From Candidatus Rifleibacteriota bacterium (GTDB lineage Bacteria > Muiribacteriota > Ozemobacteria > Ozemobacterales > Ozemobacteraceae): a DNA stretch of 58,384 bases. Made by a program: the position numbers and the translations under genes. The stretch lies in contig JAAYVD010000010.1 in assembly GCA_012517355.1 (NCBI GenBank), positions 1 through 58,384 of the forward strand, given 5' to 3'. Below are positions 11,781 to 17,315 of the stretch, one piece after another. How positions within the stretch are numbered: the first letter of the stretch is position 1; each line of letters begins with the position of its first letter. A model generated the notes under the pieces. It was given only the letters and a program-made list of their open reading frames with translations. It did not search any database and was not told where the DNA came from.

Positions 11781-11809
11781 TTGCTTCCTGCCGACCTCGG
11801 TGCCATACT
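11781..11809 (+). promoter_or_regulatory. Probable promoter of the exported 2H phosphoesterase gene
   Basis: TTGCTT, 17 bases, CATACT on the plus strand, back to back with the rpmF promoter. Predicted leader is about 35 bases with GGAGG before the ATG. Confidence 0.5.
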
Positions 11810-11850
11810 GGCAGAGACGCGATCCCACCATCCCAACCGGAGGCCTTCCC

Positions 11851-12585
11851 ATGTCGAACTGCCTGTACCGCCTGCCCCGACCCTGGCGCGCCGCCGCCCT
11901 GGCCGCCCTGCTCCTGGCCGTCTGCCTGCCCCTGGCCGCCCAGCAGCCGGTCCCGGCGCCGAAGGATGCCAAGATCAACATCTTCGCCGTGCTGTCCCCC
12001 GAGATCGAGGCGGCCGCCAAGACCTGCAGCCAGGACCTCTTCGACCAGGAACACCTCAGCACCTTCCCCCAACTGGGCTTCCAGGTGCACTGCACCCTGT
12101 ACATGACCAGCTACCCGCCCGCCGCCCTCGACCAGCTGAAGGACCTGGCGGCCTCGTTCGCCGCGACCGTCAAACCCTTCCCCGCCACGACCACCGGCAT
12201 GTCCATCACCAAGGACAACTGGTTCTTCCTGAACGTCGAGCGCGACCGCAACCTGCAGACCCTCTGCGACGAGGTCGTCAAGATGGCTTCCCCGCTGCGC
12301 TCCCCCACCAGCTTCATCCCCGACTGGGCGAAGGACAACCCCGAGAAGGTCGAGTGCATCAAGAAATACGGGAGTCCCAACGTGTTCTCCCAGTTCGAAC
12401 CCCACCTGACCCTGCTGGCGAAAGCGGATGGCGCCGCCCTCCAGCGGTTCGTCGCGGCCAACGCCCAGAACCCGGCCTACGCCACGCCCATCGCCGGCCG
12501 CGTCGTCGGCATCGGCCTCGGCGAGGCCGACCGCAACGGGCAGATCGCCACCCCGACCGCCATCTTCCTCTTCCCCGCGAACTGA
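11851..12585 (+). CDS. Exported 2H phosphoesterase-like protein
   Basis: A 244-residue protein with a signal peptide (residues 11-30, WRAAALAALLLAVCLPLAA). Two HxT-type motifs, HCTL (His80-Thr82) and HLTL (His185-Thr187), lie about 105 residues apart, each in a hydrophobic strand context (GFQVHCTLYMT, FEPHLTLLAK). This pair is the active-site signature of the 2H phosphoesterase superfamily (2'-5' RNA ligase, cyclic phosphodiesterases), which act on 2',3'-cyclic or 2'-5' phosphates. Such proteins are normally cytoplasmic, so a secreted form is unusual. The start is supported by AACCGGAGG eight bases before the ATG. The family call is an inference from motifs, and the substrate is unknown. Confidence 0.7.
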   Translation: MSNCLYRLPRPWRAAALAALLLAVCLPLAAQQPVPAPKDAKINIFAVLSPEIEAAAKTCSQDLFDQEHLSTFPQLGFQVHCTLYMTSYPPAALDQLKDLAASFAATVKPFPATTTGMSITKDNWFFLNVERDRNLQTLCDEVVKMASPLRSPTSFIPDWAKDNPEKVECIKKYGSPNVFSQFEPHLTLLAKADGAALQRFVAANAQNPAYATPIAGRVVGIGLGEADRNGQIATPTAIFLFPAN

Positions 12586-12662
12586 GCGGTAGGGGTCACC
12601 CGGGCTCAGGAAAAGCGCGACTCTCTCCGATAAGGGGGGCAAGACCTCCCGGAGGTGTCGCC

Positions 12663-14441
12663 ATGTCGTGCGTCACGCCCTTCCATAAAGGCCTCCTGTT
12701 CCTCGGACTGCTGGCCGTCACCACCCTCATCCTGGGCGGCTGCACCAGCAGCGCCAACTCCCTGTCGGCCAGCCGCCAGACCCTGACCGCGGAAGGCGAG
12801 GGGACCGCCACCGCGACCGCCGCCATCCCGACGAACAAGGCCCCGGTGGTCAACCTGCTGACCTCCAACAGCATCGTCGGGTTCGGCAGCCAGGTCACCC
12901 TCACGGCCGAAGCCATCGACCCCGACGGCGATGCCTTGGAGTACAACTGGTCCGCCTCGTCGGGCGTCATCGTCAACCAGACCGCCAACCAGATCACCTG
13001 GAAAGCCCCCGACGCGGCCACCAGCAGCATGATCAAGTGCTCGGTCGCCGACCCCAAGGGCGCGCAGAACCAGGCGCAGGCCCAGATCGACGTCGTCGGC
13101 GGACGGGTCTACCGGCTGAACCTCTCCCTCAACCGTTCCTCGTTGTACGCCGGAACCCTGGCCAGCACCGACGGGTCGGAATGGGTCCCCCTGGCGCAGG
13201 CCAAGGTCACCCTGGCCGACATCGACCAGGTCGGCATCTCCGACGCCACCGGAAAGGTGGAGTTCAACGTCGACGCCGGCGTCCAGGTCGCCAGCCAGAC
13301 CCGGGTCGTGGTGCGCTACCTCGACTGGGAAGCCCGGTACACGGTCGTCTTTCCCAGCAAGGGCAGCGTGATGGCCGATGCCCTGCAGTTCTACCCCGGG
13401 TTCGACGGGGTCACCGTGGCGATCGGCCGCGGCGACTCGTTCGCCACGCGGCGGGGCGGGGTCGAGGTCAGCGTCGTCGAGCAGACCGCCGGCGAGGACA
13501 AGCCTTTGTCCGAGGTCACCGTCCAGGTCGGAGCCGGGCAGCAGACCGCCCTCGGCGGGATCGCCTTCCTGTCCACCGAGGTGCCGGGGAGCGAGGCCGT
13601 CCTGCGCGTGACCAAGTCGGGGTACCGGCCGGTGTCGGGGTATCGCATCCCCGTCGTCTTCGACGGCCTGACCCTGGTGCGGACGACGATGCTGGCCGAA
13701 GCGGCCAGTCCGCGGACGGACGCGACGGTGGCCTGGACCCGGCCCTTCAACGGCCAGAAGGCGGTTCCGGTGACCGGGCCCTTCGAGATCGGGTTCGGCC
13801 AGCCCATGGAAAAGAGCACGATCTTCAACGACCTCGAGATGGTCATCCAGGAGAGCGAGAGCCGGACGACCTTGATCCTGAACGGCACCGGGCTGGCCAA
13901 CCGGTTCACGGCGACCTGGGACGGCGACACCCTGCTGCGGCTGACCCCGAAGGCGGCCCTGAAGCCCCTGAAGAAGTACAGTTTCTCGGTCGCGCGCTGG
14001 ACCGCCCACGCCCAGGACGGCCGCGTGCTGAAGAGCTACGCCGGCATGTTCGGCAGTTTCACCACCGATTCCGACGGCAGCCCGGTCGTGGTCTCGACCT
14101 CGCCCCGCAACGGCGACACCGGCTTCCCGCGGTCGGGGCCGTTCGTGCTGACCTTCGACCGCCCGATGGACCCGGCGACCCTGAAGAGCGGGCTGACGAT
14201 CGAGGTCACGAACGTGCAGACCGGCGCCAGGGTGACCATCGACGGCTCGACCCTCGAGGCCAACTTCGCGGTGACCTGGGCGGCCGACGACACCGTGCTG
14301 TCCCTGGCCCCGCGCAAGCAGCTGCGCGCCTACACCCCCTACCTGGTCAAGCTGCTGGGGAGCGGCCTGAAATCGCGCTCGGGCCGGTCGGTCGAGCAGT
14401 TCGCCAACCTCTGGGGCCAGTTCACCACCGGCGCTCTGTAG
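12663..14441 (+). CDS. Lipoprotein with PKD/Ig-like and SbsA Ig-like (Big_5) domains
   Basis: A 592-residue surface lipoprotein. Lipobox LILGGC places the lipidated Cys at 27. Following a Ser/Thr/Ala linker comes a PKD/Ig-like domain (VTLTAEAIDPDGDALEYNWSA), two carboxypeptidase-regulatory-like segments (ISDATGKVEFNV; VTVQVGAGQQTALGG) and two SbsA-type Ig-like domains. The last two carry the typical FEIGFGQPMEKST and FVLTFDRPMDPATL motifs and end with GSFTT/GQFTT. These are adhesion or scaffolding modules; no catalytic motif is seen. GGAGGTG precedes the ATG at 12663. It lies 77 bases after the phosphoesterase gene and may share its transcript. Confidence 0.85.
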   Translation: MSCVTPFHKGLLFLGLLAVTTLILGGCTSSANSLSASRQTLTAEGEGTATATAAIPTNKAPVVNLLTSNSIVGFGSQVTLTAEAIDPDGDALEYNWSASSGVIVNQTANQITWKAPDAATSSMIKCSVADPKGAQNQAQAQIDVVGGRVYRLNLSLNRSSLYAGTLASTDGSEWVPLAQAKVTLADIDQVGISDATGKVEFNVDAGVQVASQTRVVVRYLDWEARYTVVFPSKGSVMADALQFYPGFDGVTVAIGRGDSFATRRGGVEVSVVEQTAGEDKPLSEVTVQVGAGQQTALGGIAFLSTEVPGSEAVLRVTKSGYRPVSGYRIPVVFDGLTLVRTTMLAEAASPRTDATVAWTRPFNGQKAVPVTGPFEIGFGQPMEKSTIFNDLEMVIQESESRTTLILNGTGLANRFTATWDGDTLLRLTPKAALKPLKKYSFSVARWTAHAQDGRVLKSYAGMFGSFTTDSDGSPVVVSTSPRNGDTGFPRSGPFVLTFDRPMDPATLKSGLTIEVTNVQTGARVTIDGSTLEANFAVTWAADDTVLSLAPRKQLRAYTPYLVKLLGSGLKSRSGRSVEQFANLWGQFTTGAL

Positions 14442-15301: not shown

Positions 15302-15338
15302 GCGGGAACGACAAACGAGAAAGGACGAAAAAATCCCC

Positions 15339-17315
15339 ATGAACCAAGCGGATATCCTGTTCACCAACGCGCTCGTCATCACCATGGACGATGCCTTCCG
15401 GCAGTACTTTCCAGGAGCGGTGGCGGTCCAGGGCGACCACATCGTGGCGGTCGGCTCCGAGAGCGACCTGCGGCAAGCCTGGGAAGGGAAGGAGACGATC
15501 GACTGCCAGGGCCGGATCGTGATGCCCGGGCTGATCAACGCCCACACCCACGTGCCGATGACCCTGCTGCGCGGCCTCGCCGACGATTTGCGGCTCGACG
15601 TCTGGCTGATGGGGTACATGATGCCCGTCGAGCGCGAGTTCGTCTCTCCCGACTTCGTCAAACTGGGCACGCAACTGGCCTGCGCGGAGATGATCCGGAG
15701 CGGCACCACCTGTTTCGCCGACATGTACTACTTCGAGGAGTCGGTGGCGGAAGGGGCGGCCGAGGCCGGCCTGCGCGCCATCTGCGGCTCGTCGGTCCTG
15801 AAGTTCCCCTCGCCCGACGCCAAGTTCTACGAGGAGGCGCTGGCCTACACGCGCACCTTCATCCAGAAGTGGAAGGGCCACCCCCTGATCATCCCCAGCG
15901 TGGCGCCGCACGCCCCGTACACGACCACCCCCGAGATCCTGAAGGCCTGCATGGAGATGGCGGTCGAGTTCGACGTGCCTCTGCAGATCCATCTCGCCGA
16001 GACCGCCCAGGAGGTCGAGGCGATCCGCAACGAGACGGGCATGCCGGTCATCCCGTACATGAAGAAGCACCACCTGTTCAACGCCAAGGTCATCGCGGCG
16101 CATTGCGTCCACATCGACGAGGGTGAGATCCGGGCCCTGCACAACGTGGGCGCCGGGGTGGCGCACAACCCGAGCAGCAACCTGAAGCTGGCCTCGGGCA
16201 GCGCCCCGGTCCGCAAGATGAACGACCTGCACGTCAAGGTGGGCATCGGAACCGACGGCCCGGCCTCCAACAACGACCTCGACATGTTCGAGGAGATGCG
16301 CCTGGCCAGTTTCGTGGCCAAGCTGCAAACCGGCGACCCGACCGCCGTTCCCGCCCGCACCGCCGTCCTGATGGCCACCCGCGGCAGCGCGGCGGCCTGC
16401 CACATCGGCGACATCACCGGTTCGCTGACGGTCGGGAAGCGGGCGGACCTGATCCTGGTCGACAGCAACCCCGTCCACAACATGCCCTACTTCCTGCGTG
16501 ACAAGAACGCGGCCTACGCGCGACTGGTCTACGCCACCAAGTCGACCGACGTCACCGACACGATGGTCAACGGCAAGTGGCTGATGCGCAACCGGCAGGT
16601 GCTGACCCTCGACGAGAAGGCCCTCGTCAGCCGGTCGATGGAGTACGCGCGCCGCATCGACGCCTTCCTGACCACGCGCGAGAAGAGCGTGCTGTCGAAG
16701 CTGGTGGCCATCGGCGGCGCCATGGAGGAGGAGAGCTTCGAGGTGCAGATGAAGGTGCGCATCGCCGACGTCGCGCCGGTCCTGGCCGCCCTGAAGAAGC
16801 CCGAGATCGCCGTCGAGTACATGAAGCACTACCGGCAGTTCGACACCTACTTCCTGTTCGCGGGCAGCTCCCAGGGCCGCCTGCGCTATCGCGAAGACGA
16901 GCTGATCGGCGAGAAGGACGAGATCGTCAGCGCCCGCGCCCGGCTCACCCTCATCGGCCAGGACCCGCTCTACCCGATGCAGGAGCAGGTGCTGCTGTCG
17001 CGCAGCCGCTACCTCGCCCCGGCCGGCAACAGCCTGCGGTTCTACCGGGAGTATTTCAAACCCTCTTCGGAAGTGGAGGTCCAGAAGGACCGCCAGCGGT
17101 ACCTGGTGCGGTTCCGCGACACTGATTTCTACATCAACATCGACCAGGTCACCAAGCCCGAGCTGGGCAGTTTCCTGGAGGTGAAGAGCCGCACCTGGAG
17201 CAAGGCGGACGCGGAGCAGAAGTCGAAGCTCGTGCACGAGCTGTTGAAGTTCCTGGGCGGGGCGGAGACCGACATCGTCACCAAGGACTACCTGGAGATC
17301 GTGCTGGGCCTGTAG
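15339..17315 (+). CDS. MtaD/SsnA-type amidohydrolase fused to a C-terminal CYTH domain
   Basis: A 658-residue two-domain protein. Residues 1-445 are a metal-dependent amidohydrolase of the MTA/SAH/adenosine-deaminase type. Metal and catalytic residues are present: His69 and His71 (NAHTHVPMTLLRG), His191 (APHAPY), His218 (IHLAET), His255 (AAHCVHID) and Asp306 (GIGTDGPASNNDLDMFEEM). Residues 465-658 form a CYTH (triphosphate tunnel) domain: FEVQMKVRI (E468, Q470, K472; the usual middle Glu is Gln), FDTYFLF, GRLRYRE, YINIDQVTKPELGSFLEVKSR and a final helix pair. CYTH enzymes hydrolyse or cyclise triphosphates; MtaD-type enzymes deaminate adenine nucleosides. The fused role is unknown. A Rho-independent terminator follows at once. 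Each half is clear. Confidence 0.88.
   Translation: MNQADILFTNALVITMDDAFRQYFPGAVAVQGDHIVAVGSESDLRQAWEGKETIDCQGRIVMPGLINAHTHVPMTLLRGLADDLRLDVWLMGYMMPVEREFVSPDFVKLGTQLACAEMIRSGTTCFADMYYFEESVAEGAAEAGLRAICGSSVLKFPSPDAKFYEEALAYTRTFIQKWKGHPLIIPSVAPHAPYTTTPEILKACMEMAVEFDVPLQIHLAETAQEVEAIRNETGMPVIPYMKKHHLFNAKVIAAHCVHIDEGEIRALHNVGAGVAHNPSSNLKLASGSAPVRKMNDLHVKVGIGTDGPASNNDLDMFEEMRLASFVAKLQTGDPTAVPARTAVLMATRGSAAACHIGDITGSLTVGKRADLILVDSNPVHNMPYFLRDKNAAYARLVYATKSTDVTDTMVNGKWLMRNRQVLTLDEKALVSRSMEYARRIDAFLTTREKSVLSKLVAIGGAMEEESFEVQMKVRIADVAPVLAALKKPEIAVEYMKHYRQFDTYFLFAGSSQGRLRYREDELIGEKDEIVSARARLTLIGQDPLYPMQEQVLLSRSRYLAPAGNSLRFYREYFKPSSEVEVQKDRQRYLVRFRDTDFYINIDQVTKPELGSFLEVKSRTWSKADAEQKSKLVHELLKFLGGAETDIVTKDYLEIVLGL

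Follow-up and report, generated by a model that had tools for sequence, protein, structure and literature searches.

The window (the whole 58,384-nt stretch of DNA analysed) encodes a 658-residue protein in which an amidohydrolase of the 5'-methylthioadenosine (MTA)/adenosine deaminase type is fused to a divergent CYTH domain with an altered metal site, ExExK having become ExQxK and ExE having become ExK. The gene (15339-17315, + strand, as for all its features below) is one open frame that begins with ATG and has no inner stop. Homologues of the same length and architecture are found in 163 aligned loci, which bears out the amidohydrolase-CYTH fusion put forward in the original prediction. 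From the sequence, AGGA about 14 nt 5' of the ATG (15322-15325) is a plausible ribosome-binding site. The amidohydrolase domain covers residues 60-415 (15516-16583) and is followed by a helical linker in the AlphaFold2 model (residues 426-459; 16614-16715) and by the CYTH/TTM-fold C-terminal domain (CTD; residues about 462-658; 16722-17312). The full-length model has a pLDDT of 91 and a pTM of 0.85, and its confidence drops at residues 451-470.

Judged by its residues, the N-terminal half retains every metal and catalytic position of the MTA/adenosine deaminase group. It matches Pfam PF01979 (1.8e-70), and all the deaminase motifs first claimed are present in the translation, namely H69-x-H71 (15543-15551; 158/158 rows with data), H191, H218, H255, H276 and the catalytic/metal aspartate D306 (16254-16256; 161/161 rows with data). 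H69, H71, H191, H218, E221, H255 and D306 are invariant wherever this half is covered, and the HxH, the further His, the Glu and the catalytic Asp of MTA/adenosine-type deaminases are thus all in place. W89 and E98 are also invariant wherever covered; we take them to match residues that contact the ribose in TM0936, a related SAH deaminase. The closest solved relatives are MTA/adenosine deaminases (PDB 4f0r, 3lnp, 4dzh and 4gbd). In alignments with them, the stretch CGSSVLKFPSPDA after R146 resembles MTA-type enzymes, whereas SAH enzymes such as TM0936 presumably have arginines there. From this stretch and from the closest solved relatives, which are only 35-39% identical, the enzyme probably acts on MTA, 5'-deoxyadenosine or adenosine. 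The protein stays below the NCBIfam equivalog cut-offs, with a best score of 440.6 bits against 540 for PRK09045 and 392.9 against 609 bits for PRK06038. The same genome encodes a purine nucleoside phosphorylase of the inosine/guanosine type and MTAP, both over their cut-offs, as well as SAH hydrolase (AhcY), so that the products of deamination have a route.

In the C-terminal half lies a CYTH (triphosphate tunnel) domain of divergent sequence. Its homology is visible only through its homologues, the cyaB profile, hhalign and the fold; Pfam and phmmer applied to the window CTD are insufficient. Pfam CYTH gave no match in the window protein or in the CTD alone, phmmer of the window CTD against the PDB returned nothing useful, and the CTD profile had no match among PDB sequences in hmmsearch. 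NCBIfam TIGR00318 (cyaB) matches the window CTD at 2.2e-5 and 24.4 bits, under its 57.95-bit cut-off. Among 90 homologues, TIGR00318 matches 72 (best 2e-8) and PF01928 matches 40 (best 1.8e-7); one of ten tested members, L113, passes the PF01928 gathering score (27.3 vs 23.2 bits). The profile homology therefore comes from the homologues and from hhalign of the CTD family against seven canonical CYTHs (95.3%, E 2.1e-8), the window protein itself lying below the curated cut-offs. The AlphaFold2 model of the CTD (pLDDT 86.5) adopts the eight-stranded TTM tunnel fold. Foldseek with this model retrieved class IV adenylate cyclase, PH1819 and SaTTM (E 8.7e-9 to 8e-8), with TMt values of 0.81 for 2een, the highest, and 0.71 for 7ns9.

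In SaTTM, E7 and E135 coordinate metal 1, and E5, E7 and E137 coordinate metal 2; the triphosphate is bound by R56, R58, K69, K110 and R112, and D38xY40 orders waters (PMC8233210). The hhalign alignment and an alignment of L190 with SaTTM directly equate E468 with E5, Q470 with E7, K472 with K9, E614 with E135 and K616 with E137. The other positions were matched by eye across hhalign gaps, guided by the DxY, LRxR, LTxKG and EKxR motifs: D502/Y504 with D38/Y40, R516/R518 with R56/R58, I539 with K69 and K583/R585 with K110/R112. Hence, the ExExK of catalytic TTMs is replaced by E468-x-Q470-x-K472 (16740-16754), and the C-terminal ExE of metal 2 by E614-x-K616 (17178-17186), each in 163/163 loci. 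Glutamate is lost both at a ligand shared by the two metals (to Gln470) and at metal 2 (to Lys616). The C-terminal motifs described earlier, ExQxK together with FDTYF (501-505), RLRYR (514-518) and LGSFLEVKSR (609-618), are all found in the translation, and the conservation of Q470, proposed at the time as a test, holds throughout, with Gln in every aligned locus. The earlier suggestion of changed metal use or a binding-only domain is strengthened by two features that had been overlooked, the invariant E614-x-K616 and the loss of the LTxKG lysine. In the window, canonical LTxKG reads LTLIG (16944-16958), with I539 at the Lys position; this position is hydrophobic or Thr in homologues and is Lys in none of the 163 loci (Ile 79, Leu 47, Val 15, Met 15, Thr 7).

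The phosphate and water ligands are kept in 163/163 loci, as D502-x-Y504 (16842-16850; the DxY motif of PMC8233210), R516-x-R518 (16884-16892) and the basic cluster K583-x-R585-x-R587 (17085-17099). The invariant basic set of the CTD comprises R516, R518, R557, R567, K583, R585, R587 and K616, and E468, E614 and D602 are invariant as well. Overall, all but one of the 12 TTM-site positions are invariant, compared with 11 of the 181 remaining CTD columns (Fisher p 3e-11; the 12 positions were taken from published motifs, but the rows are related and the value therefore overstates independence). CTD pairs share 52% identity on average and down to 34%. Because the site stays invariant at such identities, the tunnel itself, and not just the fold, is under selection; that selection keeps the altered site speaks against decay. 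The signatures of two known CYTH activities are missing or not general. The HFxxxxExExK of class IV adenylyl cyclases is replaced at residues 462-463 by ME, QQ, TE and others, with no HF among the pairs listed for the 163 loci and with ExExK absent. The W/YxRxR of thiamine triphosphatases is not general, position 514 being Arg in 123/163 loci and Trp or Tyr in 14/163.

We see an even chance that the CTD serves to bind polyphosphate or a nucleotide and to signal this to the deaminase. In this mechanism, the deaminase would act on MTA, 5'-deoxyadenosine or adenosine, which arise as by-products when S-adenosylmethionine is used. Two-metal phosphate hydrolysis would have been lost from the CYTH tunnel, which would still bind polyphosphate or a nucleotide; Gln470 and the ammonium group of Lys616 would take the place of the missing metal ligands or of metal. 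Binding would be relayed through the helical linker to the deaminase, and nucleoside deamination would thereby track phosphate or energy status. The simplest reading, we infer, is a catalytically retired, metal-poor tunnel under strong purifying selection as a regulatory ligand-binding domain; with E468, E614 and D602 invariant, a single metal may still be held and some chemistry may remain. Elsewhere in the same genome lies a canonical stand-alone CYTH (L114, motif EIERK), so PPPase function may be covered separately. A bolder version is possible but doubtful: a whole CYTH lineage would have been converted from a two-metal phosphohydrolase to a polyphosphate/nucleotide receptor that needs no metal by two fixed substitutions, Glu to Gln at the ligand shared by both metals and Glu to Lys at metal 2, where the Lys ammonium replaces the cation, and would control a fused deaminase of S-adenosylmethionine by-products.

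The CTD could instead still be an enzyme with altered metal chemistry, either a one-metal or metal-independent phosphatase or a cyclase, with a product or substrate that connects it to the deaminase reaction. The retention of E468, E614, D602 and the phosphate-binding Arg/Lys, save at the K69 position, fits such an enzyme. In addition, class IV adenylyl cyclases work with the second Glu of ExE changed to Ala, and plant TTM1/2 lack ExExK/ExE yet are reported to be pyrophosphatases (PMC8233210). However, both metal sites are changed at once, one of the residues to Lys, the LTxKG Lys is gone, and neither the cyclase HF motif nor a general ThTPase W/YxRxR is present, which makes this alternative unlikely in our view. 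The original idea of a deaminase that takes up the CYTH product belongs to it and is unsupported, since residues are lost at positions published as ligands of metal 1 and metal 2.

A tether or oligomerization module that binds, for example, polyphosphate granules or RNA and leaves catalysis unaffected would account for the very basic invariant set and for the occurrence of CYTH with CHAD domains (PMC8233210), CHAD proteins attaching to polyP (PMC10892726). We give this alternative little credence, since conservation sits on single tunnel positions and a small-ligand pocket fits better.

If the CTD is indeed a regulatory ligand-binding domain, the deamination rate of the fused purine-nucleoside deaminase would be a readable output for the tunnel ligand, and the protein would be a clean bacterial pseudo-enzyme sensor in a family whose physiological role is largely elusive (PMC8233210).

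An assembly join, a frameshift or a chance resemblance, to which the weak HMM scores of the window CTD alone and its missing Pfam CYTH match might point, has next to no probability left and is already refuted by the same fusion in 163 aligned loci, the hhalign E of 2.1e-8 and Foldseek E values of about 1e-8. The fusion is real and old. It occurs in independent assemblies of two phyla and in one MAG from a third, an Acidobacteria MAG (L109). A join or frameshift near 16720, and halves that are never fused in homologues, had been named as grounds for doubt. The same join is conserved across phyla, which shows that it is not an artefact, and the halves are fused throughout the 163 loci (151 distinct C-terminal sequences). 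Searching genome contigs with the CTD alone turned up 315 relatives, of which 80 were kept; the N-terminal half is encoded with the CTD in these wherever the contig reaches that far, the exceptions being contigs that end early and L071. In L071 (3623-5660; an Anaerolineaceae MAG), the halves overlap in different frames, in what looks like a frame error, whether by frameshift or in sequencing, but may be a true split.

The fusion was present in 89 of 400 sampled Chloroflexota genomes, in frames of at least 657 residues apart from five with an inner stop or a short frame. Among 382 genomes around that of the window, it was present only in 15 Ozemobacteraceae and in three more distant ones, the latter with places and scores identical to three of the Chloroflexota genomes. 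Neither the contig scan nor either genome set yielded a stand-alone CTD. Both halves show dN far below dS against L034 (0.066/0.356 and 0.056/0.457), and CTD dN/dS is about 0.06-0.13. Related unfused deaminases of the same family (L019, L020 and L024) are 46-53% identical, and none of the three shows a CTD remnant, matches past the stop codon of L020 included. In trees, the Ozemobacteraceae fused proteins branch inside or beside Anaerolineae, which suggests transfer, in either direction; the branches of the unfused outgroups are long, and the unfused g11 proteins change place from run to run. These results call for an annotation correction, the CTD being poorly detected by Pfam in at least 15 Ozemobacteraceae genomes and in the 89 Chloroflexota.

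Gene neighbours differ between lineages, and genomic context was therefore rejected as a pathway clue. A CinA-like (COG1058) gene lies just before the fusion, in the same orientation, in 58 of 75 mainly Anaerolineae loci, and one was found upstream in only 2 of 40 other Chloroflexota loci; COG1058 is an ADP-ribose pyrophosphatase family (PMC3680494). In Anaerolineae this gene (for example L092:2500-3666 and L105:2642-3625) is often accompanied by one for an M14 carboxypeptidase; the C-terminal part of the CinA-like protein has no Pfam match, so it seems to lack the usual NMN-deamidase domain. A gene judged from its sequence to be CoaE-like (dephospho-CoA-kinase-like) lies 3' of the fusion on the same strand, at a median gap of 10 nt, in 14 of 34 more distant Chloroflexota loci (L154-L189). 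Neither neighbour was seen in Ozemobacteraceae loci, where neighbours are shared among closest relatives only. The window gene at 11781-14441 (+), encoding an 886-residue protein with bacterial Ig-like domains (Big_5, Big_9), is one that the nearest relatives, L034 and L035, also have upstream of their fusion genes.

In a non-exhaustive literature search, neither the amidohydrolase-CYTH fusion nor the invariant ExQxK/ExK pair was found. A 2021 network study names CHAD and PRK as the only partners of its three multidomain CYTH clusters and places PRK-fused CYTHs exclusively in plants and Amoebozoa (PMC8233210); the amidohydrolase is a partner absent from that study. Separately, a 558-residue CYTH - PRK/uridine kinase - CYTH protein of a Riflebacteria family (L204:331-2004; also L206, G031 and G035; PF00485 3e-27, PF01928 1.7e-23 in two stretches) looks, from its domains, like a bacterial counterpart of plant TTM1/2.

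Compared with MTA, adenosine and 5'-deoxyadenosine deaminases, the window protein has the same metal and catalytic residues and TIM-barrel architecture, but it carries a CYTH domain and misses the equivalog cut-offs. With SaTTM and archaeal CYTH triphosphatases (PF01928 cluster 3) and class IV adenylyl cyclases (TIGR00318), it shares the fold, DxY, RxR and KxR, the first Glu of both metal motifs, the strand order and the C-terminal helix. It differs from them in having ExQxK for ExExK and ExK for ExE, an LTxKG motif without Lys, no HF and an amidohydrolase in front. Like CYTH-CHAD proteins such as E. coli YgiF, it is a multidomain CYTH protein, whereas YgiF has a canonical active site, a CHAD partner and an N-terminal CYTH. 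Degenerate CYTH domains fused to nucleotide enzymes are already known from plant TTM1/TTM2 (PRK/uridine kinase-CYTH, cluster 7 of PMC8233210). Although those have another partner enzyme, other substitutions and a W/YxRxR that is not general here, they too join a CYTH domain without ExExK/ExE to a nucleoside/nucleotide enzyme.
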